From a virus: DNA of 29,861 bases. The notes under the pieces were generated by a model. The model did not search any database and was not told where the DNA came from. It saw only the letters and a list, made by a program, of their open reading frames with translations. This document shows positions 2,180 through 26,251 of this stretch, one piece after another. The position numbers and the translations under genes were made by a program. Location: positions 1-29,861 of IMG/VR virus record IMGVR_UViG_3300017764_001812; one strand, 5' to 3'. Each line of letters opens with the position of its first letter. Within the stretch, counting starts at the first letter, position 1.

Positions 2180-2317
2180 ATGGACGTATTCTTATTAACA
2201 TTATTTGTGTTCATGTCATTCATAGCTTCAAGTTTGTCATTAGCGTCCATGCTTAATAGACCGATAAAAGGTAGCTGTGGTGGAATAAATTGTAGGTGTA
2301 AAAATGGCACTAACTAG
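2180..2317 (+). CDS. NqrM-like (DUF539) small membrane protein, 45 aa
   Basis: Short gene starting directly after the upstream stop (TAAATG) and overlapping the next start by 14 bases, so probably translationally coupled. Residues 1-25 are one hydrophobic segment (VFLLTLFVFMSFIA); residues 27-36 read RPIKGSCGGI, followed by Cys38 and Cys40. This layout, an N-terminal membrane helix then a GSCGG motif and further cysteines, is the hallmark of NqrM (DUF539), the maturation factor thought to deliver iron to the Na+-pumping NADH:quinone oxidoreductase in bacteria. The phage version is shorter at the C-terminus and has three cysteines in all. The function in a phage is unknown; homology rests on this motif and topology. 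Confidence 0.65.
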   Translation: MDVFLLTLFVFMSFIASSLSLASMLNRPIKGSCGGINCRCKNGTN

Positions 2318-2870
2318 TAACTTTAACTATTTACAACCTACGGGTTTTAAGTTAGTTATAGATAGAAAAAATTATCCTAACTTAGAGTTTTTTGTACAAG
2401 ACTTTACACATGCTGGTGTCATAATGAATACCGCAGACTTAGGATATAAAAAGATTGCAGCAATACCATTTATTGGTGATAAACTCACATATAATGAAAT
2501 GTTGGCAAATATTATTTTAGATGAAGACATGAAGTCTTATACAGAAATGCATAACTGGATGAGACGTAACTTAGATCGAGATAACGTAACACCACTCGAC
2601 AGATTTAAAAATGCAACACAAAGACCACCATCACAATCCGATATTACACTATCAATATTGAACAGTGCTAATAACGCAATTGCGCAGATTATATATAGAG
2701 ATAGTATACCAGTAGCATTGACCGATATACAATTTCAAGCCACCAGCGGTGCAGAATCATTCTTAACATTTGGTGCATCATTTAGATTTACTTACTTTGA
2801 TATTAAAACATTCAATGCAACAACTGGAGCAATCGAAGATTCGTTTGATGTGACTGGCACCACTGGCTAA
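2304..2870 (+). CDS. Tail-tube-like virion structural protein, 188 aa
   Basis: Resembles a protein family common in marine T4-like phages that begins with a NFNYLQPTGFKL motif and is treated as a tail or tail-tube-like structural component. The sequence alternates beta strands with short loops (FKLVIDRKNYPNLEFFVQ, GDKLTYNEMLANIILDED) and has a Trp-containing helix (MHNWMRRNL), consistent with the gp19/gp54 tube fold, but I cannot assign a T4 number with confidence. It is in the late cluster downstream of the 1857 late promoter. The start is ATG 2304, with AGGTG about 6 bases upstream, inside the tail of the NqrM-like gene. Confidence 0.6.
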   Translation: MALTSNFNYLQPTGFKLVIDRKNYPNLEFFVQDFTHAGVIMNTADLGYKKIAAIPFIGDKLTYNEMLANIILDEDMKSYTEMHNWMRRNLDRDNVTPLDRFKNATQRPPSQSDITLSILNSANNAIAQIIYRDSIPVALTDIQFQATSGAESFLTFGASFRFTYFDIKTFNATTGAIEDSFDVTGTTG

Positions 2871-2891
2871 CATATATTATTGGAGACCTAA

Positions 2892-3725
2892 TTGGAATTT
2901 ACATATTATGATCAAACAGTTGACCTTTTACCTGAAAAATATTTAGAACTTTGGCGACCTAGGATTGTCGTTAGCGTATCAGGAGGATTAGACTCTGCTG
3001 CGTTATTATGGTTATTGTGCACATACTTTCCAGATATTGAAAAGCATATATTCACGGGAGATGACGCAAATCACCCGGCAGATGCTTGTTGTGCTGAAGA
3101 CGTAGTTAATTACATAAAGAAACAAATACCTAACCATAATATAAAGTCTCATGATTTTGTGGTGTTCGATGATATGGATCTTGAAATATTAGAAGAAGTT
3201 AAATTACTCGTTGAACAAAATCCTGAACAATATAGAAAACAATTTCCTTACATAGAAAGAGACAAGGAAAGAAGAGAGCAAGGCCTTCCACCTCATAGAT
3301 ATACAGATGAAGAAATGTTTTTAGGTAAAATAGCGAAACCGTTATTGAATCGTAGAAACATGACACGTATAATGGAAAAGCATAACTGTCCAATCTACTT
3401 ATCTGGTATGACAATGAATCCACCTAATGATGAAATGAAACGCTTAGGTTTTTATAATATTGCCGAAACGAAAAGAAATGAAGATTGTGTTGATCAGCGA
3501 ATAAAAGTTGCAGTTCATCGAAGAGGAGGAATAGCTTATCAACCTTTTTGCAGAGTTAATAAACTATTTGTTAAAGGAGTTTTTGAGGCACACGGTATAC
3601 TGGAAGAAATATTTCCTCTAACTGGCTCTTGTACTGGTGGAGCAAATGTAACTAAATTGTGGACGGAACCTTGCATGAAATGTTTTTGGTGTCAAGAAAA
3701 ACATTGGGCATTTGGAAAGTATTAA
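2892..3725 (+). CDS. PP-loop ATP pyrophosphatase, QueC-like
   Basis: Adenine nucleotide alpha-hydrolase superfamily enzyme of 277 residues. The PP-loop SGGLDS is at residues 30-35 after a beta strand (RIVVSVS). The C-terminus has four cysteines (247, 261, 264, 267; pattern C-x13-C-x2-C-x2-C), matching the zinc site of 7-cyano-7-deazaguanine synthase QueC. Family members adenylate a carboxyl group or base before attack by a nitrogen or sulfur nucleophile. The only in-frame initiation codon before the PP-loop is TTG 2892, with GGAGA 5 bases upstream. The next gene overlaps by one base (TAATG). No folE, queD or queE appears here, so a preQ0 product is not proven; the middle region (residues 90-130) is unlike standard QueC. 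Confidence 0.75.
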   Translation: MEFTYYDQTVDLLPEKYLELWRPRIVVSVSGGLDSAALLWLLCTYFPDIEKHIFTGDDANHPADACCAEDVVNYIKKQIPNHNIKSHDFVVFDDMDLEILEEVKLLVEQNPEQYRKQFPYIERDKERREQGLPPHRYTDEEMFLGKIAKPLLNRRNMTRIMEKHNCPIYLSGMTMNPPNDEMKRLGFYNIAETKRNEDCVDQRIKVAVHRRGGIAYQPFCRVNKLFVKGVFEAHGILEEIFPLTGSCTGGANVTKLWTEPCMKCFWCQEKHWAFGKY

Positions 3726-4300
3726 TGGAAGACTTAAAAGAATTAAATATGTTAATCGACTATGTTGGTCATCCAGCAATGAATGATGATTATTTAAACA
3801 AAAAAAGATTAGATACTCTTAATATGCTTATCAGAACTAACAGACATGTTGTGATTGTTAATATTGGCAGTATACATCACACTGGAAAAGATGGTTGGGA
3901 TCATTTTACAAGATACGGTGAAATGTTTAAAGAGATTAAACGTATTGCGTTAAAAAGATCAAATGTAACTTGGATTGATGTTAAAGATGATGTAAGTATT
4001 CCAGAATTAAGCGAAATACTTAATAAATATAATTATACCATTACACCATCAACCGAAATAAATATAAGTGGAACAAACTTATCGGGTTGTGTTATGAGTA
4101 ACAAACAAACTTCGGTTACAAACTTTGCAGAACTTGGATTTAAAGTTAACATTATTCTTCCTATGTGTGCTGAAGGAGAAAACACTGGAGTTAATGATTT
4201 AGAAAAAATGATGAAAGCAATTACTCATATGTATAGTCATTTAAAAAAGAGAAAACTAATAGATAACGTAGATTTAAAATGGCCATATCTAAAAACATAA
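3725..4300 (+). CDS. Isochorismatase-fold (cysteine hydrolase-like) protein, 191 aa
   Basis: Start chosen at ATG 3725, which overlaps the upstream stop by one base; an upstream ATG at 3659 lies inside the previous gene. The layout suggests the isochorismatase/nicotinamidase fold: a first strand ending in an acidic residue (MLIDYVGHP, Asp12), a strand HVVIVNIGSIHH at 41-52, and the segment ISGTNLSGCVMSN with Cys122 followed by a helix and NFAELGFKVNIILPMC, which mirrors the family's G-x-x-x-x-x-C-V then A-x-x-x-G-y-x-V pattern. Lys87 (WIDVKDD) is a possible third member of the Asp-Lys-Cys triad. The reaction is unknown. It overlaps the radical SAM gene by 22 bases. Confidence 0.5.
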   Translation: MEDLKELNMLIDYVGHPAMNDDYLNKKRLDTLNMLIRTNRHVVIVNIGSIHHTGKDGWDHFTRYGEMFKEIKRIALKRSNVTWIDVKDDVSIPELSEILNKYNYTITPSTEINISGTNLSGCVMSNKQTSVTNFAELGFKVNIILPMCAEGENTGVNDLEKMMKAITHMYSHLKKRKLIDNVDLKWPYLKT

Positions 4301-5556
4301 GACAACAGATTGAAGATGATGACATATACTTTTGTCATATGCCGTGGACTATGGTTTACAGCGAAATAAATGGTGCGTGGCAAACGTGTTGTCATGCTAA
4401 AAATTCTGGTATGTCTTTAAAAACTACTACACCTGAACAATGGATGCAATCTGATTTTCAAAACAAGTTACGCAATGAAATGTTGGATCCAAATTCTGAT
4501 CACAAGTTAATTAACGAAATTTGCAGAAGATGCAAGGTAGAAGAAAAACAATATGGAGAATCTAGAAGATTACGAAAATTAAGAAGCATGAAAAGTAATC
4601 AAGAATATTACGACAATATAATGCAAGCAGTTGAAATGTACAAAGCTGCGGAACATTTTGATTTTCATGAAAGAATATTAGAAACTCAAGTAAAAGTTTT
4701 TGGAATGGAATGTAATTTAGATTGTCACATGTGTCCACCCGCTTATTCTACTACCAGACAAAAGACACAATTAAAAGATGGAATGTTACATGAAGAAATT
4801 TACGGTGATGCACAAAGGCATATAAGATCTACTCTAGCTACTGCACAAAATGTTAAGATTGACATGATGGAAAGTTTAAGGGAATTAGCTCCTTATACTC
4901 ATTTTGTAAAAATCATTGGTGGTGAACCTTTAGTAATGAAAAAACAATTTGAGTATTTAAAGATACTGATTGACAGCGGTCATTCAAAGCACGTCACTAT
5001 TAAATATCAAACCAACATGACAAAACTTGGAAACAAGAAACACAGAGTAATTGATTTTATTCCTCATTTTAAAAGATTCACATTTACCGCTTCTTTAGAT
5101 AGTATGGGTGATGCTATAGAATACTGTCGTAGAAGAACAAAATGGGATGAGGTACTTCACAATATGGAAACAGTAAAACAATATGATAATGTTGTTGTCG
5201 ATACAAACTCTACTATGGGTTTTCTAAGCATACTAAGATTCTATGAGTTTTTAGAATGGGCAGAAAATTATAAATATATAGATAGAGTACAGAGTGTTTA
5301 TGCTTTAGAAAGACCACCGCATTTTCAAGTTAAAAATTTACCGCAAAAAATAAAAGATAATCTTATACCAAAGTATTCAAACTGGCCGCATATTCAAAAA
5401 ATGTTGATGCAGACGCACGATAAGTTCGGTGAACCAAAGGAACTTAAAAACACTTTTAATTATCTATTAGCACAGGACGATTATTATAGAGGAACAAAGT
5501 ACGAAAAAAATTTATTTGAAGTTTTTCCTGAACTTGAAGAATTTTATGTTAGATAA
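4279..5556 (+). CDS. Radical SAM protein with N-terminal SPASM/twitch-like domain
   Basis: Radical S-adenosylmethionine enzyme of 425 residues. The catalytic [4Fe-4S] motif CxxxCxxC is at Cys145, Cys149 and Cys152 (ECNLDCHMC), and GGEPL, the SAM-binding GGE motif, is at 214-218. Residues 17-90 form a cysteine-rich module ahead of the radical SAM core (Cys19, Cys37, Cys38, Cys82, Cys85, with a PW, a WMQ and a LRNEML segment), like a SPASM/twitch auxiliary cluster domain placed N-terminally. Such proteins are frequent in marine phages but their substrates are unknown. It is the last gene of the cassette with the PP-loop and isochorismatase-fold genes, so the three may act on one substrate. Confidence 0.8.
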   Translation: MAISKNIRQQIEDDDIYFCHMPWTMVYSEINGAWQTCCHAKNSGMSLKTTTPEQWMQSDFQNKLRNEMLDPNSDHKLINEICRRCKVEEKQYGESRRLRKLRSMKSNQEYYDNIMQAVEMYKAAEHFDFHERILETQVKVFGMECNLDCHMCPPAYSTTRQKTQLKDGMLHEEIYGDAQRHIRSTLATAQNVKIDMMESLRELAPYTHFVKIIGGEPLVMKKQFEYLKILIDSGHSKHVTIKYQTNMTKLGNKKHRVIDFIPHFKRFTFTASLDSMGDAIEYCRRRTKWDEVLHNMETVKQYDNVVVDTNSTMGFLSILRFYEFLEWAENYKYIDRVQSVYALERPPHFQVKNLPQKIKDNLIPKYSNWPHIQKMLMQTHDKFGEPKELKNTFNYLLAQDDYYRGTKYEKNLFEVFPELEEFYVR

Positions 5557-5574
5557 ATAGATTATGGAGACATT

Positions 5575-6021
5575 ATGATTGATTTGAAACAAGTCCACGA
5601 AATGTGGCAACAAGATTGCGCTATTAATAATATGCAGCTAGATGAAACATCTAAGCAAACACCAAAATTACATTCAAAATACTTACAGCTATGGTCAACC
5701 GCAAAGCTTGAATTACGGCGTGCAGAGTTTGATCAGAAAAAATTATTGAAAGAAAAATGGTTATACTATAATGGTAAGATGGATCAGGAAACTTTAAAAG
5801 AAAAAGGTTGGGATCCGGATCCGTTTGAAGGTTTAAAGATACTTAAAGGCGAAATGGATTACTACTATGATAGCGATCCTGAAATACAGAAGTCAGAAGA
5901 AAAAATACAATATTGGAAAACAACAATTGATACATTAACAGAGATTATAGATAATTTAAAATGGCGACACCAAACTATATCGAACATAATTAGATGGAAA
6001 CAATTCGAGTCAGGAAACTAA
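5575..6021 (+). CDS. uvsY: UvsY recombination mediator
   Basis: T4 UvsY-like protein of 148 residues (T4 UvsY 137), which loads the UvsX recombinase on gp32-coated single strands. Matching landmarks are an N-terminal helix, the LHSKYLQLWSTAKLELRRAE segment, a LYYNGK motif (T4 LDYYSGR), QYWKTTIDTL (T4 LQYWGILLD) and the C-terminal RWKQFESGN (T4 MRAFEAGK). TGGAGA lies just upstream of the ATG. The uvsW start overlaps its 3' end by 28 bases, the same order as in T4 and cyanophages. Confidence 0.92.
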   Translation: MIDLKQVHEMWQQDCAINNMQLDETSKQTPKLHSKYLQLWSTAKLELRRAEFDQKKLLKEKWLYYNGKMDQETLKEKGWDPDPFEGLKILKGEMDYYYDSDPEIQKSEEKIQYWKTTIDTLTEIIDNLKWRHQTISNIIRWKQFESGN

Positions 6022-7466
6022 ATCATTCAATCATACATTTAGAGTGTGAAAGAAGTGTTGGAGCAGAGTTAAGAGAGTTCTTTTCTTTTTACGTTCCAGG
6101 ATACAAGTTTATGCCCGCATATCGTAATAGAATGTGGGATGGAAAAATAAGATTATATAATCAAACTACTGGCCAAATACCAGCAGGTTTATTTCCTCAG
6201 GTACTTTCATTTGCAGAATTAAGAGAATATGAATTAGAAATAGAAGAAACAGAATACGGTAATCCTAATGAAGGAAATAAAATTAATCCTGAATTTATGA
6301 TGAAATTTATAGATGCTTTAAAGTTACCATTTAAAATAAGAGATTATCAGTTTGATGCAGTGTGCACTGGAATACAAAGAAAAAATGCTATATTATTATC
6401 GCCGACTGGTTCTGGTAAATCACTTATAATATATGCTCTAATGCGTTATCTTATATCGTCGTTTGAACAAGACGTTCTTGTGATAGTACCGACTACGTCA
6501 TTAGTTGAGCAAATGTATAATGATTTTAAAACTTATGGTTATGATGTAGAAAAATATTGTCATAGAATATATTCAGGTAAAGATAAAAATACAACTAAAA
6601 GAATCATAATAAGCACATGGCAATCAATATATAGATTTCAACCAGATTGGTTTAGTAGATTTGGAGCAGTATTTGGAGATGAGTGTCATGGATTTAAATC
6701 TAAATCACTTACTACTATAATGAATAAATGTGTAGAAGCTGAATACAGATTTGGCACAACTGGAACTTTAGATGGCGCATTAACGCATGAATTAGTATTA
6801 CAAGGATTGTTTGGAAAGGTATATAGAGTTACAAGCACAAGAGAATTACAAGATAACGATACTCTTGCAAAACTTAATATAAGACGAATAGTATTAGATT
6901 ATAATGACATAATAAAAAAAGATTTTGGAAAGAAAACATATCAAGAAGAAATTGAATTTATTGTAACTTACCAAAAAAGAAATACGTTTATAAAAAATTT
7001 AACATTAGATTTAAAAGGTAACACATTAGTTTTATATAATTATGTAGAAAAACATGGTAAGCCACTTTATAATATGATTAAAGATGATGTTGAAGAAAGT
7101 CGCAAGACTTTTTTTGTATCCGGAGAAACAGCTGCTACAGATCGTGAAGCGATAAGAGCTATAGTAGAAAAACAAAAAAATTCTATTACAGTTGCGTCTC
7201 TTGGTACGTTTAGCACAGGTATAAATATTAGGAATCTACATAATATAGTCTTTGCATCTCCATCCAAATCACAGATAAGAGTGTTGCAAAGTATTGGTAG
7301 AGGTCTAAGAAAAACAGATGATGGCAAAGATACTACATTATACGATATTATAGATGACATAAGTTGGAAATCTAGAAAAAATTATGGAATATTACATGCA
7401 GATGAAAGACTTAGAATTTATGGAAGAGAAAAATTTAACCATAAAACGTACAGAGTAAATTTATGA
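5994..7466 (+). CDS. uvsW: UvsW ATP-dependent helicase
   Basis: Superfamily 2 helicase of 490 residues (T4 UvsW about 503), which remodels R-loops and stalled forks and helps the switch from origin-dependent to recombination-dependent replication. The N-terminal domain has the T4-like pattern ECERSVGAELREFFSF and RMWDGKIRLY. Walker A SPTGSGKS is at about 136-143, the DECH box at about 229-232, and motif VI (QSIGRGLRK) in the C-terminal RecA-like domain. The terminal KFNHKTYRVNL matches the T4 C-terminus. It overlaps uvsY upstream and the following gene by 4 bases (ATGA). Confidence 0.95.
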   Translation: METIRVRKLNHSIIHLECERSVGAELREFFSFYVPGYKFMPAYRNRMWDGKIRLYNQTTGQIPAGLFPQVLSFAELREYELEIEETEYGNPNEGNKINPEFMMKFIDALKLPFKIRDYQFDAVCTGIQRKNAILLSPTGSGKSLIIYALMRYLISSFEQDVLVIVPTTSLVEQMYNDFKTYGYDVEKYCHRIYSGKDKNTTKRIIISTWQSIYRFQPDWFSRFGAVFGDECHGFKSKSLTTIMNKCVEAEYRFGTTGTLDGALTHELVLQGLFGKVYRVTSTRELQDNDTLAKLNIRRIVLDYNDIIKKDFGKKTYQEEIEFIVTYQKRNTFIKNLTLDLKGNTLVLYNYVEKHGKPLYNMIKDDVEESRKTFFVSGETAATDREAIRAIVEKQKNSITVASLGTFSTGINIRNLHNIVFASPSKSQIRVLQSIGRGLRKTDDGKDTTLYDIIDDISWKSRKNYGILHADERLRIYGREKFNHKTYRVNL

Positions 7467-7957
7467 CTATAAAACAATTTAAGTTAACAAATAATGAAGA
7501 AGTGATATGCGAAGTCGTTGAATGGGACACAAACGATGAAGTTGGTGACATTTTGGTGAAGAAAGCATTACGAATAATTGGTGTAGAAGATTATCAAAAA
7601 GGTTGGAGGTTCTTTGCTTTTAGACCTTGGATGTCTTTTCATGATGATCCGGAATCTTTGCAAACAATAAACTCTTCACATATTATAGTCACAACGAATC
7701 CAACATCAAAAATATTAAAACATTATAAAGCATGTTTACATGGTATAAAAAGAGATTTAAAATTAGATAAATCAGGTAAAAAGAAAAAAGTATACGCCAA
7801 TCTAGATGAAATACAAGATGTAATAAAAGATCTTACAGATGATGAGATGGATGACTTTTTAGCCAGAAAATATGGTGCAGTTGAAGAAGATAGTTTTCTT
7901 CCTGATTCCGATAATAGTAATGTAATTAAGTTCAAGCCGAAGGGTACTCTACACTAG
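7463..7957 (+). CDS. Conserved marine T4-like hypothetical, possible Sm-like barrel
   Basis: Unassigned 164-residue protein. The N-terminal half has a strand pattern LTNNEEVICEVVEW, then RFFAFRPWMSF and SSHIIVTTNPT, which resembles an Sm-like small beta-barrel seen in conserved proteins of marine T4-like phages. The C-terminal half is charged and probably disordered, with a Lys-rich patch (SGKKKKVY) and an acidic tail. It overlaps uvsW by ATGA and is the last gene before the promoter at 8052, so it belongs to the uvsY-uvsW transcript. RNA binding would fit an Sm fold but is inference. Confidence 0.7.
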   Translation: MTIKQFKLTNNEEVICEVVEWDTNDEVGDILVKKALRIIGVEDYQKGWRFFAFRPWMSFHDDPESLQTINSSHIIVTTNPTSKILKHYKACLHGIKRDLKLDKSGKKKKVYANLDEIQDVIKDLTDDEMDDFLARKYGAVEEDSFLPDSDNSNVIKFKPKGTLH

Positions 7958-8051
7958 GGTATATCCCTCCTCCGAATATACTATTCTATTTTACCACACT
8001 TTTCAGCAAATGTACACCGTTATTTTTGCTTCTTAAATGAAAAAATACTAT

Positions 8052-8080
8052 TGTACTTTTACACAAAAATAGTGTATAAT
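8052..8080 (+). promoter_or_regulatory. Sigma70-like promoter for 55-47-46
   Basis: -35 TGTACT (8052-8057), 17-base spacer, -10 TATAAT (8075-8080), then the shared AGTACTATA initiation context. One -35 mismatch makes it the weakest of the eight-member promoter family. AAAGGA at 8094-8099 gives the gp55 ribosome site. Confidence 0.75.
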
Positions 8081-8105
8081 AGTACTATACAATAAAGGAT
8101 TAGCT

Positions 8106-8690
8106 ATGGCCCGTAAAAAAAGTATACATTATGTCAACAATTCTGATTTTTCTACTTCAGTAGTCGAATACGTCAAAAGAGTAGAAAAAGCTAGAAAAGA
8201 AGAAACAACGATTCCTACAGTACCAGATTATGTAGCTCAATGCTTTCTCAGAATAGCAGAAGGTTTATCACATAAAGCTAACTTCATAAGATATACTTAC
8301 AGAGAAGAAATGGTAATGGACGCAGTTGAAAATTGTTTAAAAGCAATAGGGAACTATAACTTAGAAGCAGCAACAAGAACCGGTAAACCAAATGCATTCG
8401 CATACTTTACACAAATAACTTGGTATGCATTCTTAAGAAGAATAACAAAAGAAAAGAAACAACAAGAAATAAAAATAAAGTATTTAACTAAATCAGGCAT
8501 TGATAGCTTCATAGATGCAGGTACAGAAGAAGTTGCTACAGCTACAGCTACACATTTTGTAGATACTTTAAGAGATAGAATTCAAAGAGTTAGAAGCACT
8601 GATGAAGAAATTAAAGAGATTGTTAAAAAAGAAAGAAAGAAACGTAAAGTGAAAATAGCAGATTCAGATTTAAGTGAGTTTATGGAATGA
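8106..8690 (+). CDS. 55: Late-transcription sigma factor gp55
   Basis: T4 gp55-like sigma factor of 194 residues (T4 185). It binds host RNA polymerase core and, with the sliding clamp, recognises TATAAATA late promoters; two such boxes are present in this window. Typical features are an N-terminal basic start, a region-2-like helix with RYTYREEMVMDAVENCLKAIGNYNLE, an aromatic FAYFTQITWYAFLRRI helix for -10 recognition, and a Lys-rich C-terminal tail. It is followed by gp47 with a 4-base overlap, as in cyanophages. Confidence 0.93.
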   Translation: MARKKSIHYVNNSDFSTSVVEYVKRVEKARKEETTIPTVPDYVAQCFLRIAEGLSHKANFIRYTYREEMVMDAVENCLKAIGNYNLEAATRTGKPNAFAYFTQITWYAFLRRITKEKKQQEIKIKYLTKSGIDSFIDAGTEEVATATATHFVDTLRDRIQRVRSTDEEIKEIVKKERKKRKVKIADSDLSEFME

Positions 8691-13362: not shown

Positions 13363-13648
13363 TTTAACACTATACACTCAAGATGATTGTGGTTATTGTC
13401 ATCTTTTAAAAAAGAAACTCGCTGAATGGGACTTTAGGTATAGAGAAATTAATGTCAGTTACGATTTGTTTGCAAAAGATTTCATGAAAGCAAATGGTCA
13501 TAGAACAGTTCCTCAATTGTATTGGAATAATACACACTTAAATAAACTTCCAACTACTGAGCTTACCAAGCAACACATTATAGACGAACTTGATTATGAA
13601 AATTACATGGGTGGAGTAGAAGATTGGGGAACTCTAAAAAGAGCATAG
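13346..13648 (+). CDS. Glutaredoxin-like protein, CGYC active site
   Basis: Thioredoxin-fold disulfide oxidoreductase of 100 residues. A first beta strand (INLTLYT) leads to the CGYC redox motif at residues 15-18, followed by a helix, then the cis-proline TVPQLYW at 54-60. These are glutaredoxin/NrdH features; T4 NrdC is the functional counterpart, reducing phage ribonucleotide reductase. GGAGGT is 8 bases before the ATG, a strong ribosome site inside the gp44 coding region. It is the first of three genes inserted between gp44 and gp62. Ribonucleotide reductase genes are not in this window. Confidence 0.85.
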   Translation: MFSSINLTLYTQDDCGYCHLLKKKLAEWDFRYREINVSYDLFAKDFMKANGHRTVPQLYWNNTHLNKLPTTELTKQHIIDELDYENYMGGVEDWGTLKRA

Positions 13649-14811
13649 CCATTATCGGTGGAGGTGTCGCTGGCATAACCACTGCATACTTCCTAGCTAA
13701 AAAATATAAAGTAGTATTATTTGATCCAAACGGTGTGGCTGAACAATGTAGTTACGCAAACGGTGGTCAACTTTCTGTATGTAATGCAGAAGTGTGGAAT
13801 AGTTACGATAATATAATCAAAGGTGTTAAATGGTTAACACAACCTGATGCACCTCTTGCTTTTAGACCAGATCATTGGTCTTGGTCTAAAATTAAATGGA
13901 TTGCTGGTTTTATTGGTGCAACCATAACTAATAAGTACGATTATAACACACGTAGAACTATTGAATATAGTTTAAGATCTCGTAAGTTACTTAAAAAATT
14001 AATGAAAGAAATAGACATTGACTTTCATCATAATGACTGTGGTATATTACACATATATAAAAATCAAAAGTCTTGGGATAAAGCACAAAGAACTCTAGAT
14101 AGATTTAAAGACACTGGTTGGGGTAGAGTTAAAACAAAAACAAATCTTATAAAGTATAATATTAAATCAAATGATGTGGTAGGTGCTACTATAACTAAAG
14201 GTGATTCAGTTGGTGATATACATGCCTTTTGTACTGCACTACAAACTCATATGCTTTCTGATAAAAAATATAATTATAGTTTTCGTATTAATAAAATTGT
14301 TCGTAATGAAGATGAAGTCTATTGGTCGAATCGAAGAGATATGGCAATAAGTATCGATACCCTTAAAAAAGATTATGATGAAGTTATAGTATGTGCAGGT
14401 GCATATACAAAAACATTTTTACCAAATTTAAATATATATCCAATCAAAGGTTATTCTATAACATATCAAAATGCTTATGAAGCTCCTACTATATCTGTGC
14501 TTGATGACGATAGAAAAATAGTAGCTTCGCCTTTTGGTAATAATGTATTTAGAGTTGCAGGTACAGCAGAACTTGCCGGTTGGAATCATGATATGAGGGA
14601 AGACAGAATTAAACCTTTAGCCGACTGGGTAAAAGAAAATACTTTTGTTGATAAAGATAATTATGAGAAATGGTCATGCTTAAGACCAATGACACCGAAT
14701 ATGTTACCTGTTGTTGGTAAAGTAAAAGGCTTATGGGTTAATAGCGGTGCCGGTCATCTTGGTTGGACAATGGGAATGGCACTAGCAGAAAAGTTAACAA
14801 AGGATATATAA
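13624..14811 (+). CDS. FAD-dependent D-amino acid dehydrogenase-like (DadA/DAO family)
   Basis: Flavoprotein oxidoreductase of 395 residues. The N-terminal dinucleotide fold IAIIGGGVAGITTAYFLAKK has the GxGxxG loop at 12-17, followed by a strand ending VVLFD. CSYANGGQLS at about 42-51 matches the DadA signature, and a conserved C-terminal SGAGHLGWTMGMA closes the FAD site. DadA enzymes oxidise D-amino acids to 2-oxo acids and ammonia, passing electrons to the quinone pool. Start is TTG 13624 with GGAG 7 bases upstream, overlapping glutaredoxin by 25 bases. Substrate could instead be glycine, sarcosine or another amine. An uncommon phage metabolic gene placed inside the replisome operon. Confidence 0.8.
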   Translation: MGNSKKSIAIIGGGVAGITTAYFLAKKYKVVLFDPNGVAEQCSYANGGQLSVCNAEVWNSYDNIIKGVKWLTQPDAPLAFRPDHWSWSKIKWIAGFIGATITNKYDYNTRRTIEYSLRSRKLLKKLMKEIDIDFHHNDCGILHIYKNQKSWDKAQRTLDRFKDTGWGRVKTKTNLIKYNIKSNDVVGATITKGDSVGDIHAFCTALQTHMLSDKKYNYSFRINKIVRNEDEVYWSNRRDMAISIDTLKKDYDEVIVCAGAYTKTFLPNLNIYPIKGYSITYQNAYEAPTISVLDDDRKIVASPFGNNVFRVAGTAELAGWNHDMREDRIKPLADWVKENTFVDKDNYEKWSCLRPMTPNMLPVVGKVKGLWVNSGAGHLGWTMGMALAEKLTKDI

Positions 14812-15044
14812 TGGAAACAGAAATGTTAAATCAATTTGTAAATCAACTTGCAATGTGTGAGTTATTATCAGCACATAGTATAATACAACCATCTATGGCA
14901 TTTGAATGTTTACAAGTTGAAAACTTTATAAAAGAATCATATTTCGATAATAACTACAATGAATTTATAAAATGGTGGGATGCTACAATAGTTCCTATAG
15001 TCACAGAATTACAATCAATGGTACAAAAAAATGAATCCCTTTGA
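14811..15044 (+). CDS. Small hypothetical protein, 77 aa
   Basis: Starts at ATG 14811, overlapping the DadA-like stop by one base (TAATG). A longer frame from 14763 lies within the DadA-like gene and is not needed. Mostly helical with many aromatic residues near the C-terminus (FIKWWDATIVPIV). No known motif. It overlaps the gp62 start by 14 bases. Function unknown; it is part of the insert between gp44 and gp62. Confidence 0.65.
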   Translation: METEMLNQFVNQLAMCELLSAHSIIQPSMAFECLQVENFIKESYFDNNYNEFIKWWDATIVPIVTELQSMVQKNESL

Positions 15045-15408
15045 GTATTGCAATGCAATAAATTATACTAAGAAAAATATTATGATAGATGATATCACAG
15101 AAAAAGCATATTCATCTTACATGGTAAATAGACAATTATCTTACTTTCCAGATACAGTTTTAGCTGCAAATGAAATGAACCGCAACCATCATATTGATAA
15201 CCGTCTTCAATTTGATTTTTTTATAAATATAATTAGAAAACGTAAAAGGTTTTCTAAATGGTTTAAACCAGAACAAATTAGTGATTTGGAAGTAGTTAAA
15301 CAGTATTATGGCTATAGCAACGAAAAAGCCCGTCAAGTTTTAACACTCCTATCCACTGATAATATAAAAGAATTGAAAAATAAGGTGGCTAAAGGTGGAA
15401 GAAAATAA
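15031..15408 (+). CDS. 62: Clamp loader small subunit gp62
   Basis: Small subunit of the clamp loader, 125 residues, shorter than T4 gp62 (187) but like the compact marine forms. Typical stretches are NPFEYCNAINYTKKNIM, MVNRQLSYFPDTVLAANEMNR, KRKRFSKWFKP and YYGYSNEKARQVL. It has no ATPase motif, as expected. It works with gp44 (12424-13362) to load gp45. The gp44 to gp62 adjacency of T4 is broken here by three genes. Confidence 0.9.
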   Translation: MNPFEYCNAINYTKKNIMIDDITEKAYSSYMVNRQLSYFPDTVLAANEMNRNHHIDNRLQFDFFINIIRKRKRFSKWFKPEQISDLEVVKQYYGYSNEKARQVLTLLSTDNIKELKNKVAKGGRK

Positions 15409-15811
15409 AATAGTAGAATGGAACCCAGCAAGCATGCTCGAGGTGACATTGAATGAGCCGGACGATTTCCTTAAAATTAGAGAGACTCTTACTAGGATAG
15501 GAGTCGCATCTCGTAAAGACAATAAACTTTATCAGTCTTGTCACATCTTACATAAACAGGGTAGGTACTTCATTGTGCATTTTAAAGAACTCTTTTTATT
15601 AGATGGAAAAAAATCAAACTTAGAAGAAAACGATGTTGGCCGTAGAAATACTATAGCTACGTTGATGAGTGATTGGGGTCTATTAACTGTAGAAAATAAA
15701 GAACAGCTACAACCTATAGCACCACTAAGACAAATTAAGATAATCTCTTTTAAAGATAAAGATCAATGGGAATTATGTCCGAAATACAATATTGGTAATG
15801 CAACAAAGTAA
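15395..15811 (+). CDS. regA: RegA translational repressor
   Basis: T4 RegA-like RNA-binding protein that represses translation of early phage mRNAs by binding near their start codons. From residue 14, MLEVTLNEPDDFLKIRETLTR follows the T4 start MIEITLKKPEDFLKVKETLTR; YQSCHILHKQGRY, YFIVHFKEL and the end PKYNIGNA also match. Start is uncertain: GTG 15395 has AAGGTGG 6 bases upstream and gives 138 residues; ATG 15434 would match the T4 N-terminus and length but has no clear ribosome site. I favour GTG 15395. It overlaps gp62 by 14 bases. Confidence 0.93.
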   Translation: MEENKIVEWNPASMLEVTLNEPDDFLKIRETLTRIGVASRKDNKLYQSCHILHKQGRYFIVHFKELFLLDGKKSNLEENDVGRRNTIATLMSDWGLLTVENKEQLQPIAPLRQIKIISFKDKDQWELCPKYNIGNATK

Positions 15812-15995
15812 AATTAAAGAAGCTTATAGAATATTCTTTTTAGTAAAAGGTCATCTTGACATTACTGACGATACTGCTCTAGCATGTTACGATAATTACT
15901 TTAAAAGATTATGGTACAATCAAGAAGCTTGGGTAAGAGAAGAAGCATTTGAAATAGCTTATAAAAAAAAATTTGGACCTACTGGTTTAAATTAA
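15798..15995 (+). CDS. Small hypothetical protein after regA, 65 aa
   Basis: Start placed at ATG 15798, overlapping regA by 14 bases; a TTG two codons upstream is possible. Predicted helical with many aromatics (YRIFFLVKG, NYFKRLWYNQEAW). No motif recognised. It is the last gene of the clamp operon before an AT-rich non-coding stretch at 15996-16073. Function unknown. Confidence 0.6.
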   Translation: MQQSKIKEAYRIFFLVKGHLDITDDTALACYDNYFKRLWYNQEAWVREEAFEIAYKKKFGPTGLN

Positions 15996-16020
15996 AAAAA
16001 AATATATTATATATATTATA

Positions 16021-16042
16021 GAGTCGCCGATAACCGGGACTC
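16021..16042 (+). promoter_or_regulatory. 5'-leader hairpin upstream of the heat-shock gene
   Basis: GAGTC pairs with GACTC and, after one bulged G, CCG pairs with CGG around an ATAAC loop, giving an 8-bp GC-rich stem in an AT-rich gap. No T run follows, so it is not an ordinary terminator. The ribosome site AGGAGG lies about 20 bases further on and is not sequestered by this stem. A role in mRNA stability is possible. No family-type promoter is visible in the AT-only stretch just before it. Confidence 0.5.
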
Positions 16043-16073
16043 GTTTAACCTTGCTAGTCAATAGGAGGCAATT

Positions 16074-16484
16074 ATGACTAAGAACTTTATTTATCCAAGA
16101 AACGCTTTTTTGGGTTTCGATCACATTTTCGACCAGCTAGAAAATATTCATAGCCACGCGAAAGATACTTATCCACCATACAATGTAGTTAAGCATGATA
16201 GTATGACATATGAGATTGAGATGGCAGTAGCCGGTTTCAAGAAAGATCATATCGATATTGAAATAAAAGATCATGTGTTAACGATTATTGGTGATAGACC
16301 AAAGCGTAGAGAACAAGACGCTTACGTCCATAAAGGTATCAGTGCTCGAAAGTTTAATAGGTCATTTAGACTGTCTGAATATACAGAAGTAGACGGTGCC
16401 GACATTCAGGATGGAATCCTTACTGTTAATCTTAAAGTAGTTCTACCAGAAGAGAAGCGACCTCGTAAAATTAAAATTAATTAA
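16074..16484 (+). CDS. Small heat-shock protein, Hsp20/IbpA family
   Basis: Alpha-crystallin domain chaperone of 136 residues that would hold unfolded proteins in soluble form. N-terminus FIYPRNAFLGFDHIFDQLE is IbpA-like. The alpha-crystallin core runs from about 40 to 128: YEIEMAVAGFKKDHIDIEI, the HVLTIIGDRP strand pair, the RKFNRSFRL motif, and DGILTVNL. The C-terminal IXI-like tail is KIKIN. A strong AGGAGG site precedes the ATG. Small heat-shock genes are a known feature of marine T4-like phages. It has somewhat more GC-rich codons than the neighbours. Confidence 0.95.
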   Translation: MTKNFIYPRNAFLGFDHIFDQLENIHSHAKDTYPPYNVVKHDSMTYEIEMAVAGFKKDHIDIEIKDHVLTIIGDRPKRREQDAYVHKGISARKFNRSFRLSEYTEVDGADIQDGILTVNLKVVLPEEKRPRKIKIN

Positions 16485-16500
16485 TAACGAGGAAAAATAA

Positions 16501-16731
16501 ATGACAACTCTAACTCAGGCTGTAAGTACAGCCACATGCCGGGTATGCGACGCAATTGCAGCCTGGGGCAAACGCACTCTATCAAATATTCAATACAATA
16601 GACAAATGGCAGCCAATAGACGTGTTGCTCAGGATCTTATAAGTCTTGGCTTTAATCATCAGAAGGAGCATGATCAAATACTCCGTCAGTTGAATGATCG
16701 CACTATTAATGAATATTATGGTAAGTACTAA
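16501..16731 (+). CDS. Small hypothetical, 76 aa, DUF1127-like flavour
   Basis: Short basic helical protein (RTLSNIQYNRQMAANRRVAQDLISLGF) with two cysteines near the N-terminus (CRVCDAI) spaced CxxC. The Arg-rich helix followed by a short second helix faintly recalls DUF1127 small proteins of alphaproteobacteria, but I cannot confirm it. It follows the heat-shock gene by 16 bases with an ACGAGG ribosome site, so the two share an mRNA. Codon use is slightly more GC-rich than the rest of the window, which hints at acquisition from a host. Confidence 0.6.
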   Translation: MTTLTQAVSTATCRVCDAIAAWGKRTLSNIQYNRQMAANRRVAQDLISLGFNHQKEHDQILRQLNDRTINEYYGKY

Positions 16732-16732
16732 T

Positions 16733-16774
16733 ATGTGGCCATACACTGAAGAAGAAAACGATTTTTTATCATAA
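16733..16774 (+). CDS. Possible 13-residue micro-ORF (MWPYTEEENDFLS)
   Basis: An ATG one base after the stop of the previous gene opens a 13-codon frame ending at TAA, just before the terminator at 16790. The spacing suggests reinitiation. The peptide is acidic with a WPY start. Support is positional only; translation is not shown. Confidence 0.3.
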   Translation: MWPYTEEENDFLS

Positions 16775-16789
16775 TCAAATCAAAAATTA

Positions 16790-16812
16790 GGCGGGTTCTT
16801 CCCGCCTTTTTT
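16790..16812 (+). terminator. Intrinsic terminator after the heat-shock operon
   Basis: GGCGGG/CCCGCC stem, TTCTT loop, six T. Ends the heat-shock and small-ORF transcript directly before the lysozyme late promoter. Confidence 0.95.
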
Positions 16813-16814
16813 AT

Positions 16815-16822
16815 TATAAATA
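16815..16822 (+). promoter_or_regulatory. T4-type late promoter for lysozyme
   Basis: Exact TATAAATA box three bases after the T run of the terminator. T4 spacing predicts initiation near 16828, leaving AAGGAGG at 16833-16839 as the ribosome site for the ATG at 16845. Confidence 0.85.
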
Positions 16823-16844
16823 GTTAATTATAAGGAGGTATAAT

Positions 16845-17288
16845 ATGAATATAGAACAGTTAAGAAAAGAACTTGAAGTGGATGAAGGAGTTAAATATGA
16901 AATATATAAAGATCACCTTGGTTACCCTACCTTTGGCATTGGTCATTTGGTTATTGATTCTGATCCAGAACATGGACAAGAAATTGGAACTCCTGTATCA
17001 GAAGATAGAGTTATCGAAGCCTTTGACAAAGACGTACAAATCGTGCTCTCAGATTGCGAGCGATTGTACAATGACTTTAATGTCTTGCCAGAAGAATGCA
17101 AACTAATCATTGCTAACATGATGTTTAATATGGGAAGACCGCGTCTATCCAAGTTTAAGGGTATGAAGGCTGGAGTGGATTCAAAAGATTGGAATAAAGC
17201 CGCAGATGAAATGATAGACTCTGCATGGTATAGACAAGTACCAAATAGAGCAGGTAGACTTGTTAAAAGAATGAGAGCATTAGCATAA
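16845..17288 (+). CDS. e: T4-type lysozyme (endolysin, GH24)
   Basis: Muramidase of 147 residues (T4 lysozyme 164) that cleaves peptidoglycan for host lysis. The catalytic triad matches T4 Glu11, Asp20, Thr26: here Glu14 (VDEGV), Asp23 (YKDHLGY) and Thr29 (PTFGIGH). The C-terminal SAWYRQVPNRAGRLVKRMR matches T4 SRWYNQTPNRAKRV. It has no signal peptide, so it would need a holin, which I do not see here. It could also be a baseplate gp5-type lysozyme domain, but free-standing length and its own late promoter favour endolysin. Overlaps the next gene by one base. Confidence 0.92.
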   Translation: MNIEQLRKELEVDEGVKYEIYKDHLGYPTFGIGHLVIDSDPEHGQEIGTPVSEDRVIEAFDKDVQIVLSDCERLYNDFNVLPEECKLIIANMMFNMGRPRLSKFKGMKAGVDSKDWNKAADEMIDSAWYRQVPNRAGRLVKRMRALA

Positions 17289-17530
17289 TGTCAGATTTAG
17301 ATTTCGATTTTGGTTTTACTGCTGTAACTGAAGATGAGTTAGAAGCAGTACAAAAAACTAAAGTATCAGCAGAAGGCGCTCAAGAAAAACTTGATAAGCT
17401 TTATAATGCAATCACACCGCTATTAACTAACTTAAAGAAAAATCCAGAAAAAGAATATATTCTTTGGCCAAACAGGCTGGAGAAAGTAGAAGCATTTGAA
17501 GATCATATTCAGAAAATTTATTTAAAATAA
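17288..17530 (+). CDS. Conserved T4-like hypothetical, 80 aa
   Basis: Small acidic protein starting SDLDFDFGFTAVTEDEL, with a helical middle (KLDKLYNAITPLLTNLKKNP) and a WPNRLEKVEAFEDHI tail. I recognise this type as widespread in marine T4-like phages but know no function. It overlaps the lysozyme stop (TAATG), so it is a late gene from the 16815 promoter. It ends 3 bases before the promoter of the next operon. Confidence 0.75.
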   Translation: MSDLDFDFGFTAVTEDELEAVQKTKVSAEGAQEKLDKLYNAITPLLTNLKKNPEKEYILWPNRLEKVEAFEDHIQKIYLK

Positions 17531-17533
17531 TCC

Positions 17534-17562
17534 TTTACTTTTACTAAAAACTATGGTATAAT
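17534..17562 (+). promoter_or_regulatory. Sigma70-like promoter with start codon at the initiation site
   Basis: TCC then -35 TTTACT (17534-17539), 17-base spacer, TATGG then -10 TATAAT (17557-17562). By family alignment transcription starts near 17569, only about 3 bases before the ATG at 17572, so the first cistron is probably leaderless. Confidence 0.85.
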
Positions 17563-17571
17563 ATAACTACA

Positions 17572-18177
17572 ATGGAAAATTTTAAAACATTTTTATTAGA
17601 AGCTCAAGGAAAAGGTTTAACGATCTTTGATATTGATGAGACTATGTTTATAACCAAAGCAAAAGTAAAGGTGGTTAAAAATGGTAAAGTTATTAAGAAA
17701 CTTGATAACCAAGAATTTAATACTTATAAGAAAAAAGCTGGAGAAGAATATGACTTCGGCGAATTCAAAAACGCCGAAGTATTTAAGCGGACGTCAACGC
17801 CAATCGCACGAATGATTAACAAAGTTAAGGCAATATTGAAGAATGCTACAAGAGCAGGATCAAAAGTTATTATCGTAACTGCAAGGCCTAACTTTGATAA
17901 CAAGAAAACATTTCTAGATACATTTAGAAAACAAGGGATCGACATAGATAAAATCTATGTTGAACGTGCTGGTAACTTAGGTAGTGGACCAGCAGCAGAA
18001 AATAAAAGAGTAATATTTAAAAAATACTTAAATCAAAATATATATAAAAGAATAAGACTTTTTGATGATGCTAAGTCTAATCTTAAAGTTTTTTTATCAT
18101 TACAAAAAGACTACCCGGATGTTTCATTTGAAGCATTCTTGGCAAAACCAAATGGCTCTGTTTCAAGAGTAAGATAA
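17572..18177 (+). CDS. HAD-superfamily hydrolase
   Basis: Haloacid dehalogenase-fold phosphatase of 201 residues. Motif I FDIDET places the nucleophile Asp20 and acid/base Asp22; motif II is the VTARP threonine 103; the KR/KK region near 145-151 gives the lysine of motif III; motif IV is FDDAKSN (Asp165, Asp166). A cap-like insertion lies between motifs I and II. It might dephosphorylate nucleotides or DNA 3' ends, as in the polynucleotide kinase phosphatase domain, but there is no kinase domain. No ribosome site precedes the ATG and the promoter is too close for one. A 9-bp inverted repeat lies inside it (17753-17780). Confidence 0.75.
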   Translation: MENFKTFLLEAQGKGLTIFDIDETMFITKAKVKVVKNGKVIKKLDNQEFNTYKKKAGEEYDFGEFKNAEVFKRTSTPIARMINKVKAILKNATRAGSKVIIVTARPNFDNKKTFLDTFRKQGIDIDKIYVERAGNLGSGPAAENKRVIFKKYLNQNIYKRIRLFDDAKSNLKVFLSLQKDYPDVSFEAFLAKPNGSVSRVR

Positions 18178-18186
18178 GGAGAAAAA

Positions 18187-19254
18187 ATGAAATCGATACT
18201 GCACGCAATGGCAGTGGCAACACTGTCTTTGTTTTTTTGTTTGTCAGCGTACGCTGACAAGGTGAAAGTTGGATTTATATACGTAGGACCTATCGGCGAC
18301 CACGGTTGGACTTACAGACATGATATTGGTCGACTTGATGTTGAAAAACATTTTGGTGATAAAGTAGAAACTATATACATGGAAAGTGTAAAGTATGGAC
18401 CTGATGCCGAAAGAGCAATAAGGGCTATGGCAAAAGACGGAGCTGATATTATATTCGCTACATCTTTTGGTTATATGGAACCTATGTTAAAAGTTGCTAA
18501 AGAATTTCCAAATGTAAAATTTGAACATGCAACTGGTTACAAGCAATCTGAAAACATGGCTAGCTATGGTTTAAGATTATATCAAGCAAGACACGTTCAA
18601 GGAATTATCGCTGGAATGATGACTAAAACAAATAAGATTTGTTATGTAGGTGCATTTCCAATTCCTGAAGTAATTAGAGAAATTAATACTTTCTACTTAG
18701 GCGCAAAGAAAATGAATCCAAAAGTTGACATCGATATTGTATGGGTAAACTCTTGGTACAATCCACCTAAGGAAGCTGATGCTGCAGCGGTTATGATTGC
18801 AGAAGGATGTGACATGGTAGCTCAACATACTGATTCACCTGCACCTCTACAAACTGCACAGAAAAATGGTGTAACAGGTTTTGGTCAGGCTTCTGATCAA
18901 ATAAGATTTGCACCAAAAGCACAGCTTACTGCTACTATCGATAACTGGTCTCCTTATTATATTGAAAAGGTACAAGCAGTTATAGATGGTAATTGGAAAA
19001 CTGGAGATTACTTTGGTCATATGAAAGATGATGTCGTACAAATGGCGCCATTTACTAATATGCCTGTAGATGTTGAAGCATTTGCACAGAAAATTAAAGA
19101 AGGTATTACAGATGGTAAGTACTTTGCTTTCACTGGACCTATTAAAGACAACACTGGTAAACTTCAATTAAAAGATGGAGAGATTGCTAGTGATGCTCAT
19201 TTAAATAGCATGATGTACTATGTCGAAGGCATAGACGCTACGGTGCCAAAATGA
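18187..19254 (+). CDS. BMP-family ABC transporter substrate-binding protein, secreted
   Basis: Periplasmic binding protein of 355 residues of the basic membrane protein (BMP/PnrA) family. Residues 1-23 are a Sec signal peptide: basic start, hydrophobic core ATLSLFFCLS and an AYA cleavage site before DKVKVGF; there is no proper lipobox. The mature part has the family pattern VGFIYVGPIGDHGWTYRHD, DGADIIFATSFGYM and a late TATIDNWSPYY. Known family members bind purine nucleosides or purine bases. GGAG precedes the ATG. The phage encodes no permease here, so it would have to feed a host transporter. It is coupled (ATGA) to an oxygenase and then to apt. Confidence 0.85.
   Translation: MKSILHAMAVATLSLFFCLSAYADKVKVGFIYVGPIGDHGWTYRHDIGRLDVEKHFGDKVETIYMESVKYGPDAERAIRAMAKDGADIIFATSFGYMEPMLKVAKEFPNVKFEHATGYKQSENMASYGLRLYQARHVQGIIAGMMTKTNKICYVGAFPIPEVIREINTFYLGAKKMNPKVDIDIVWVNSWYNPPKEADAAAVMIAEGCDMVAQHTDSPAPLQTAQKNGVTGFGQASDQIRFAPKAQLTATIDNWSPYYIEKVQAVIDGNWKTGDYFGHMKDDVVQMAPFTNMPVDVEAFAQKIKEGITDGKYFAFTGPIKDNTGKLQLKDGEIASDAHLNSMMYYVEGIDATVPK
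18241..18260 (+). repeat. Perfect 20-base palindrome in the signal-peptide region
   Basis: TTGTCAGCGT followed directly by its reverse complement, covering the codons for the signal-peptide cleavage region. GC-rich relative to its surroundings. Could be a protein-binding site, an RNA hairpin of the 5' mRNA, or chance. Confidence 0.8.
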
Positions 19255-20111: not shown

Positions 20112-20638
20112 AAATAAAAGATTACATTAGAAGTTTTGAAGATTGGCCTGTTAAAGGTGTAAGTTTTAAAGACACCGCAGGTTTATGTAATGGTGACGGG
20201 TTTAAACTCACAAATGATTTTATATTTAAAAAATTAATAAAGTATACTAGTGAAAGCTATACTGATAAAATTATAGGAATAGATGCAAGAGGTTTTATAT
20301 TTGCAGCGCCCTTAGCTCATAATTCGTCTATACCTTTAGTTTTAGCAAGAAAAGAAGGTAAGCTTCCCGGACCAGTAATATCTAAAACATATGATTTAGA
20401 ATATGGTACATCTACGTTACAGATACAAAAAGACAGTATTAGTAATAAAGATCGCGTAATTATTGTAGATGATCTTTGTGCCACTGGCGGAACAATGAAA
20501 GCAACTATTGATATTGTTGAAAGTGTATCAGCTAAAGTTGTAGCAGTCTTATGTGTTATAGATTTACCTAAGCTTGGTGGATCTACAAAAATAAAAGAAA
20601 GAAATATTCCATTTTATAACGCGGTATCATATGAATGA
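20108..20638 (+). CDS. apt: Adenine phosphoribosyltransferase
   Basis: Type I phosphoribosyltransferase of 176 residues, close to the usual bacterial Apt length. Matches the family from the N-terminus: IRSFEDWPVKGVSFKD, DARGFIFAAPLA, RKEGKLPGPVISKTYDLEYG, and the PRPP motif VIIVDDLCATGGTM at 117-130. It makes AMP from adenine and PRPP in the cytoplasm. It is coupled to the oxygenase upstream (ATGA) and overlaps the MIP18-like gene by 8 bases. With the BMP protein this suggests uptake and salvage of purines for phage DNA synthesis. Confidence 0.92.
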   Translation: MKIKDYIRSFEDWPVKGVSFKDTAGLCNGDGFKLTNDFIFKKLIKYTSESYTDKIIGIDARGFIFAAPLAHNSSIPLVLARKEGKLPGPVISKTYDLEYGTSTLQIQKDSISNKDRVIIVDDLCATGGTMKATIDIVESVSAKVVAVLCVIDLPKLGGSTKIKERNIPFYNAVSYE

Positions 20639-20948
20639 TAAAAATAAAATAATGGCTCAAGTTGTAAAGAACTTAGAACAGGTATACGATCCTGAGATGC
20701 CAAGTATTTCTGTCATACATTTGGGTTTAATTTATGATATAGAAATATTAGAAAATAATACAGTGGTTAAAATTACACATACACTTACAAGTGCTTTCTG
20801 TCCAATGGCAGATGAAATAAATCAAAATATTCAACAAGCTGGAATGGTAGAAGGAATAAAAGAAAGTATAGCCAATTGTACTTTTCAACCACCATTCAGT
20901 ATGGACATGGTTCCGGAAGAAACTAAAATGGCTATGGGTTGGACATGA
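20631..20948 (+). CDS. MIP18/DUF59 (SufT/PaaD-like) Fe-S assembly factor
   Basis: DUF59-family protein of 105 residues. Diagnostic pieces are QVYDPEMPSISVIHLGLIYDIEI (family consensus DPE-x-N/P...DLGLIY), TLTSAFCPMADEI with Cys57, and the C-terminal MAMGW. Family members help mature Fe-S proteins. The family's usual DP-CP pattern is present, so it looks functional. It overlaps apt by 8 bases and the A-type carrier by ATGA, making a two-gene Fe-S unit at the end of the operon. Confidence 0.85.
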   Translation: MNDKNKIMAQVVKNLEQVYDPEMPSISVIHLGLIYDIEILENNTVVKITHTLTSAFCPMADEINQNIQQAGMVEGIKESIANCTFQPPFSMDMVPEETKMAMGWT

Positions 20949-21250: not shown

Positions 21251-21278
21251 TTTTATTTCAAAAAATATCATTTTTTCC

Positions 21279-21307
21279 TTTACATTTGCTGAAAACTAGT
21301 GTATAAT
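21279..21307 (+). promoter_or_regulatory. Sigma70-like promoter for DNA polymerase operon
   Basis: -35 TTTACA (21279-21284), exact 17 spacer, TAGTG then -10 TATAAT (21302-21307), then AGATCTATA. The upstream 16 bases CATTTTTTCCTTTACA are shared with the promoters at 27425 and 27919. Confidence 0.88.
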
Positions 21308-21331
21308 AGATCTATAATTGAAGGAGAGCTT

Positions 21332-25395: not shown

Positions 25396-25429
25396 ACAAT
25401 TGCGTGTAAAAACAGATGAAGGAATTATC

Positions 25430-26245: not shown

Positions 26246-26251
26246 GTTTAT

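Follow-up and report, generated by a model that had tools for sequence, protein, structure and literature searches.

A QueC-like PP-loop protein linked to a protein of predicted isochorismatase fold and a twitch-domain radical SAM enzyme in uncultured marine phages

In a virus record of 29,861 bases, analysed over its whole length and called here the window (G+C about 30-38%), three overlapping genes separate a tail gene from a recombination gene, and the question is whether their products work together and on what substrate. The carrier is an uncultured T4-like marine phage. T4-like genes of the window encode scaffold, major head protein, tail tube, UvsY, a UvsW-type helicase (downstream of uvsY), late sigma factor, SbcCD-like nuclease, sliding clamp with its loader, and DNA polymerase; the major head protein is nearest to those of Phage C48C1 (68.5%), Methylophilales phage Melnitz (62%) and Pelagibacter phage HTVC008M (61%). 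The features under discussion are:

2304..2870, + strand: left flank, tail tube protein, gp19-like (phrog_45, E 8.6e-20)
2892..3725, + strand: QueC-superfamily PP-loop ATP-pyrophosphatase, 277 aa, TTG start
3725..4300, + strand: gene 2, protein of predicted isochorismatase/nicotinamidase fold, 191 aa
4279..5556, + strand: twitch-domain radical SAM enzyme (NF033640), 425 aa
5575..6021, + strand: right flank, UvsY recombination mediator (phrog_231, E 1.2e-39)
20631..20948, + strand: SUF-associated Fe-S assembly protein (PF01883/TIGR02945), not adjacent to the cassette

The cassette comprises three co-directional, overlapping open reading frames (2892-5556) and starts 21 bp past the gp19 stop; the reading frames and their gp19 and uvsY flanks bear out an earlier sequence-only reading of this DNA, which had placed three overlapping genes between tail and recombination genes. 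The TTG start of the PP-loop gene lines up with ATG starts of its relatives, and GGAG is found at 2882-2885. Gene 2 starts at ATG 3725 in a TAATG overlap with the PP-loop stop, and its relatives begin at or near this codon; a GTG start at 3659, given by the mechanical list of reading frames, was rejected as it has no support from relatives. Scans of 2200-6100 for intrinsic terminators and sigma-70 promoters gave a signal no greater than in shuffles. Judged by NG86 dN/dS (the ratio of computed dN and dS), which is about 0.12-0.14 for the radical SAM gene, 0.20-0.24 for the PP-loop gene and 0.5-0.7 for gene 2, the cassette genes are under purifying selection.

Elsewhere the window carries accessory metabolic genes for a D-amino-acid-dehydrogenase-like FAD protein (13624-14811), a PnrA/Bmp-type transporter binding protein (18187-19254), a 2OG-Fe(II) oxygenase (19251-20111) and adenine phosphoribosyltransferase (20108-20638). 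At 25400-26336 a 281-aa class II tRNA-synthetase-like protein (PF00152; phrog_29758) is encoded about 6 bp upstream of a predicted tRNA-Asn(GUU) (ARAGORN), which has no Rfam tRNA match at gathering score and may be degenerate or false.

The three proteins

The PP-loop protein scores below the threshold of Pfam QueC (PF06508; 17.9 bits vs a cut-off of 22). In a profile-profile comparison (hhalign) 28 diverse relatives matched seven genuine QueCs, that of E. coli and six from phages and a halovirus, with a probability of 97.3, the alignment spanning both ends with the C-terminal Cys4 included; unrelated pairs taken as controls gave 1.1 and 0.1. The AlphaFold2 model (pLDDT 91.6, pTM 0.90) has its best structural matches (VIA) in Cap9 (Z 14.4) and QueC (Z 14.1), followed by TilS and LarE, and superimposes on Cap9 9nto with an rmsd of 2.7 over 170 aligned positions. 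Profile and structure together confirm a QueC-like protein with a four-Cys site, as had been read from the sequence.

The phosphate-binding loop (SGGLDS, residues 30-35) is kept throughout the family, SGGxDS (pattern S[GA]GxDS) being present in 28/28 members. The C-terminal cysteines are C247, C261, C264 and C267, and the protein ends in ...CFWCQEKHWAFG. Four cysteines are found in 27/28 members with a first gap of 9-30 residues. The exact spacing C(x)8CxxCxxC, given as the canonical QueC zinc-site motif in PMC13329287, occurs in 0/28. Genuine QueCs vary too, and Cys4 spacing alone is a weak criterion because 2/7 of them are also missed by the regular expression used here. Neither YxQxHxxE nor YPDC is present in any of the 28 members, and VPxRN is missing from the window protein. 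Roughly where QueC has its base-recognition segment, family members show the pattern G-[MI]-T-x-N-P-P, which reads GMTMNPP in the window protein.

The radical SAM enzyme was described in the sequence-only reading as having an N-terminal SPASM-like module; this proved correct and can be put more exactly, as the protein matches the twitch radical SAM family NF033640 over its full length (280.7 bits vs a curated cut-off of 170). The family model itself carries no function name. The CxxxCxxC motif (C145, C149, C152) and the N-terminal cluster cysteines (C19, C37, C38, C82, C85) are invariant in 11 diverged sequences. There was no relative of solved structure at E 0.001, and a viperin-like match (PADLOC E 1.1e-5) was set aside in favour of NF033640 since it covers the protein only in part. 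The SUF-associated protein of the window could help to mature an Fe-S enzyme such as this one. Two relatives (L019/L020) have a ferredoxin-like gene upstream of the PP-loop gene, flanked by the head protein gene and gp19; together with the SUF protein it fits phages that must supply Fe-S enzymes. A virus that carries the radical SAM gene of the cassette also has a ferredoxin-like gene followed by one reading as ribosomal protein bL12 (L010, 4030-4718).

Gene 2 could be placed by predicted structure only, sequence searches (Pfam, PHROGs, NCBIfam, PDB) having returned nothing useful, with no match to PF00857 up to E 10. Its model (pLDDT 88.1, pTM 0.86) matches B. subtilis PncA (VIA Z 12.7, rmsd 3.3, 149 aligned), and the list of structural matches is filled by the nicotinamidase/isochorismatase superfamily (Foldseek E 1.7e-4), so that an isochorismatase/nicotinamidase-like fold is predicted and the Cys-hydrolase fold proposed earlier holds on the model. 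A BFVD protein, A0A1B1IX44, is a close structural match with 26% identity. Among 62 distinct family sequences C122 (in GTNLSGC), N118, G116 and G121 are invariant, C148 and R28 are each kept in 61/62, and D12 in 49/62 (His in 11). The family profile matches five E. coli isochorismatase-fold proteins weakly; at the candidate catalytic position, mapped by this weak alignment (prob 2.9), Lys is found in 7/62, and gene 2 apparently has no conserved catalytic lysine. Hydrolysis by gene 2 is uncertain because there is no convincing Asp-Lys-Cys triad. The protein may hydrolyse its substrate by an unusual mechanism, it may carry an acyl group, or it may not be a hydrolase. In two further loci (L156 4887-9522, L138 2-4583) gene 2 and a nitroreductase-like gene form a pair directly after genes reading as ribonucleotide reductase subunits, with neither a twitch-type radical SAM gene nor a PP-loop gene.

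As to distribution, no relatives of the PP-loop protein or of gene 2 were found in cultured phages, and pattern-based scans, in which remote homologues may escape notice, confirmed none in bacterial or archaeal genomes. Cultured-phage relatives of the radical SAM enzyme are only distant ones. Vibrio phage K566 (L268; cultured, 255 kb) encodes at 14995-21731 four proteins matching the twitch radical SAM profile among genes that read as glycosyltransferases, and it offers a tractable system for this family.

Linkage, fusions and the insertion site

The trio occurs in identical order in four other contigs (L009, L014, L011, L012), the radical SAM gene of L014 and the PP-loop gene of L011 being truncated by contig ends. 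In L009 and L014 it follows gp19, and in L009 it also precedes uvsY; in L011 and L012 it lies outside the gp19-uvsY site, and the cassette has therefore moved as a unit. Among 71 other marine T4-like loci that contain gp19 as well as uvsY, 57 have gp19 directly before uvsY (gap 1-65 bp), and since the junction is usually empty the cassette can be regarded as a clean insertion.

The same junction is a cargo hotspot and holds unrelated genes in L197 (5475-7958), L251 (6915-7826) and L216 (7350-7991), from which it could be argued that the three genes are unrelated cargo collected there. This explanation is most improbable: the same genes recur in the same order at a second genomic location, the PP-loop and radical SAM genes are sometimes fused, and enrichment is seen from three independent anchors. 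Around 49 sequence clusters of the PP-loop family, a twitch-like radical SAM gene was found within 6.5 kb in 37/49 and gene 2 in 16/49. With gene 2 as the anchor (78 loci) the radical SAM gene was present in 62/78, mostly touching, and the PP-loop gene in 28/78. Anchoring on the radical SAM gene (25 clusters) gave PP-loop in 16/25, gene 2 in 12/25, and either or both in 20/25. As a control 79 uvsY-anchored loci of related marine phages were taken, the near-identical contig of the window among them; with that contig excepted, none of the three families was found (0/78). These counts refer to loci and not to independent events, as many contigs are short or of shared ancestry.

Fusion of the PP-loop and radical SAM parts into a single protein of 743-761 aa is seen in three separate sequence clusters (L037, to which the truncated L038 is related; L048, at 6001-8286; L150), and one fusion contains a full-length NF033640 match. 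The possibility that the genes occur independently in relatives, which would have spoken against a joint function, is thus answered by strong linkage across many viral contigs and by the fusions, and on these grounds the three enzymes likely make up one pathway. Co-occurrence is not obligate: many loci have gene 2 and the radical SAM gene without PP-loop, and some PP-loop loci have neither of the others (L022, L063), so the three steps may be separable. The three-gene set recurs across many uncultured marine phages, with two of the three sometimes fused.

Candidate substrates and products

In the preQ0 route the radical SAM enzyme QueE makes a carboxylate, which QueC then activates with ATP. 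It is proposed, with somewhat less than even confidence, that the cassette is a mobile unit performing a relay of this QueE-to-QueC kind in which another substrate takes the place of deazaguanine. The twitch radical SAM enzyme would make or rearrange a carboxylate-bearing small molecule; the PP-loop protein would activate the carboxylate with ATP, giving acyl-AMP and pyrophosphate, and join it to ammonia or an amine; gene 2 would use its invariant cysteine on the intermediate, be it an amide or an acyl, and would release ammonia or else carry the acyl group. We infer this chemistry, the order of steps and the role of gene 2 from the genes, folds, linkage, fusions and loss of motifs. The proposal draws on conserved linkage from three anchors, the PP-loop-radical SAM fusions, end-to-end QueC homology with Cys4, and best structural Z values to Cap9 and QueC, and for the shift of substrate on YxQxHxxE (0/28) and YPDC (0/28) as against SGGxDS (28/28). 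Weighing on the other side are the non-obligate co-occurrence, the dependence among the counts, a gene 2 with no convincing triad, and the lack of a glycosyltransferase adjoining the window cassette.

One alternative is a preQ0/queuosine pathway that is degenerate or incomplete and relies on queD and folE of the host. The PP-loop protein is homologous to QueC, CDG could come from the host, and on a 73-kb contig (L145, 7655-9573) a QueE-like radical SAM gene lies beside a relative of gene 2, with no queD in that contig. The PF06508 gathering score is not reached. The earlier remark that the usual deazaguanine partners are absent holds: queD and folE are missing from the window record, a 30-kb fragment, and PHROG scans of the other window proteins gave no deazaguanine family. 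Nor did a standard preQ0 pathway with queD, queE and folE emerge among relatives, queD being found in 0/24 and folE in 2/15 of the records tested, which are fragments, the two both being distant-branch members. According to two papers, the Tyr of YxQxHxxE and the Tyr of YPDC are both required for E. coli QueC activity, and Cap9 binds deazaguanine through the Tyr and Asp in the YPDC region (PMC13329287, PMC13279940). Phage QueCs such as those of KVP40 and Dp-1 retain Y-x-D-C, unlike the present family, in which YPDC and YxQxHxxE are missing from all 28 members. The loss of these recognition motifs counts against deazaguanine as the substrate and most simply points to some molecule other than CDG. 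A partial preQ0 pathway is accordingly very unlikely, and preQ0 is an unlikely product.

For the relay on another substrate, the product would be a small molecule or a decoration rather than a nucleic-acid base, with a sugar-type class as the first guess. In larger relatives (L035/L036 on a 98-kb contig, L047, L048, L051) the cassette families adjoin extra radical SAM enzymes, a stand-alone SPASM-type protein, nitroreductase-fold proteins, a PseC/LegC-like aminotransferase and a NodU-like carbamoyltransferase. Over the 49 PP-loop clusters, the aminotransferase was counted in 15/49, NodU/CmcH carbamoyltransferase in 16/49 and nitroreductase in 16/49, and SGNH-like proteins in 20/49 and glycosyltransferase-like genes in 11/49 and 7/49 (the last two labels being readings of sequence and not scored family matches); all were 0/78 in controls. 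For two other radical SAM groups the counts run too high, since superfamily hits enter them. One 170-kb contig (L121) has radical SAM, nitroreductase, gene 2 and radical SAM at the gp19-uvsY site. Taken together, these wider clusters point to tailoring of small molecules or glycans no less than to a nucleic-acid target.

The two foremost guesses for the product are tailoring of a sugar type and protein conjugation. WbpG/PseA-type PP-loop enzymes aminate or amidate sugars, and the cassette could act likewise on a glycan or sugar nucleotide, the PP-loop protein aminating or amidating the sugar and the radical SAM enzyme altering it; the resulting compound would decorate the fibres of the virion or the surface of the host. 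Aminotransferase, carbamoyltransferase, SGNH-like and glycosyltransferase-like genes in the larger clusters, unseen in the 78 controls, argue for it, as do distant PP-loop members among tail-fibre-like and glycosyltransferase-like genes (L022, L066) and the K566 radical SAM relatives, which alternate with glycosyltransferase-reading genes. Several of these neighbour labels are unscored, however, and the window and its nearest relatives hold three genes only, with no glycosyltransferases beside them at gp19-uvsY; the idea is rather doubtful.

QueC-family scaffolds have recently been shown to be repurposed for protein conjugation in bacterial immunity. By analogy with Cap9 and QatC, the PP-loop protein might couple a carboxylate made by the radical SAM enzyme to a protein of phage or host, at its N-terminus or on a side chain. 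By Z, the highest-ranking solved structure is the complex of Cap9 with its conjugated partner (QueC is tied within 1 Z unit), and the PP-loop family, like QatC, keeps SGGxDS and a Cys4 variant and has lost CDG-recognition residues. Against this, no CD-NTase, QatB or conserved acceptor candidate was seen travelling with the cassette, which in the window and in L014 has no room for an extra reading frame; gp19 and gp23 do not start with Met-Gly; and PADLOC on seven proteins gave no strong match, the PP-loop protein showing only weak QueC/SspD matches. Conjugation of this kind is unlikely.

A bolder reading is that a twitch radical SAM enzyme, a repurposed QueC-like ligase (the two being fused in some viruses) and a non-canonical gene 2 form a phage-specific pathway that builds a new chemical group and attaches it to a macromolecule, either of the virion or of the infected cell; this is possible and is put forward tentatively. 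The sequence-only reading had spoken of a new modification or anti-defence pathway, of which the joint pathway stands as likely, while nothing shows a modified base or an anti-defence role.

Comparison with known systems

The components of the cassette are variants of known superfamilies, and a literature search with partial coverage did not find the three-gene combination described. With this set a large group of QueC-like proteins from uncultured marine phages joins them, associated with radical SAM enzymes by neighbourhood and by fusion and devoid of deazaguanine-recognition motifs. Genes tallied as 'queC' among auxiliary metabolic genes of ocean viromes may thus include some that do not make preQ0, and the PP-loop-radical SAM fusions give a defined one-polypeptide entry to new ATP-dependent ligation chemistry.

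With NF033640 the radical SAM enzyme shares a full-length match, the cassette member being linked or fused to a QueC-like domain. A T4-like environmental genome (Nishimura et al. 2017) is likewise a radical SAM-rich marine virus with Fe-S assembly genes, namely 12 radical SAM genes and paaD, whereas the available part of that paper describes no PP-loop or isochorismatase-fold partner (PMC5332604). Gene 2 has in common with the isochorismatase/nicotinamidase hydrolases PncA, RutB and YecD the predicted fold, a nucleophile-type Cys at the matching position and, in most members, an Asp at the end of strand 1. It differs from them in having no PF00857 match and no conserved Lys at the (weakly) aligned position, and in a second, nearly invariant Cys (C148) and the invariant N118.

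Cap9 of type IV CBASS and QatC of qatABCD are, like the cassette protein, cases of the QueC scaffold used outside base synthesis; the likeness to Cap9 is structural (9nto, Z 14.4) and QatC shares the loss of CDG-recognition residues. In contrast to them the cassette is phage-borne and not in bacterial defence loci, and the cassette loci read showed neither a CD-NTase nor QatA, QatB or QatD as a partner. With QueC of the preQ0 pathway the PP-loop protein shares end-to-end homology (prob 97.3), SGGxDS, a C-terminal zinc-type Cys4 and a radical SAM partner. Its Cys4 spacing is longer, though, and YxQxHxxE, VPxRN and YPDC are absent from the window protein; the cassette has no queD or folE, and its radical SAM protein is a twitch enzyme and not QueE. 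The cassette looks like a small assembly line that is related to the queuosine route and distinct from it.
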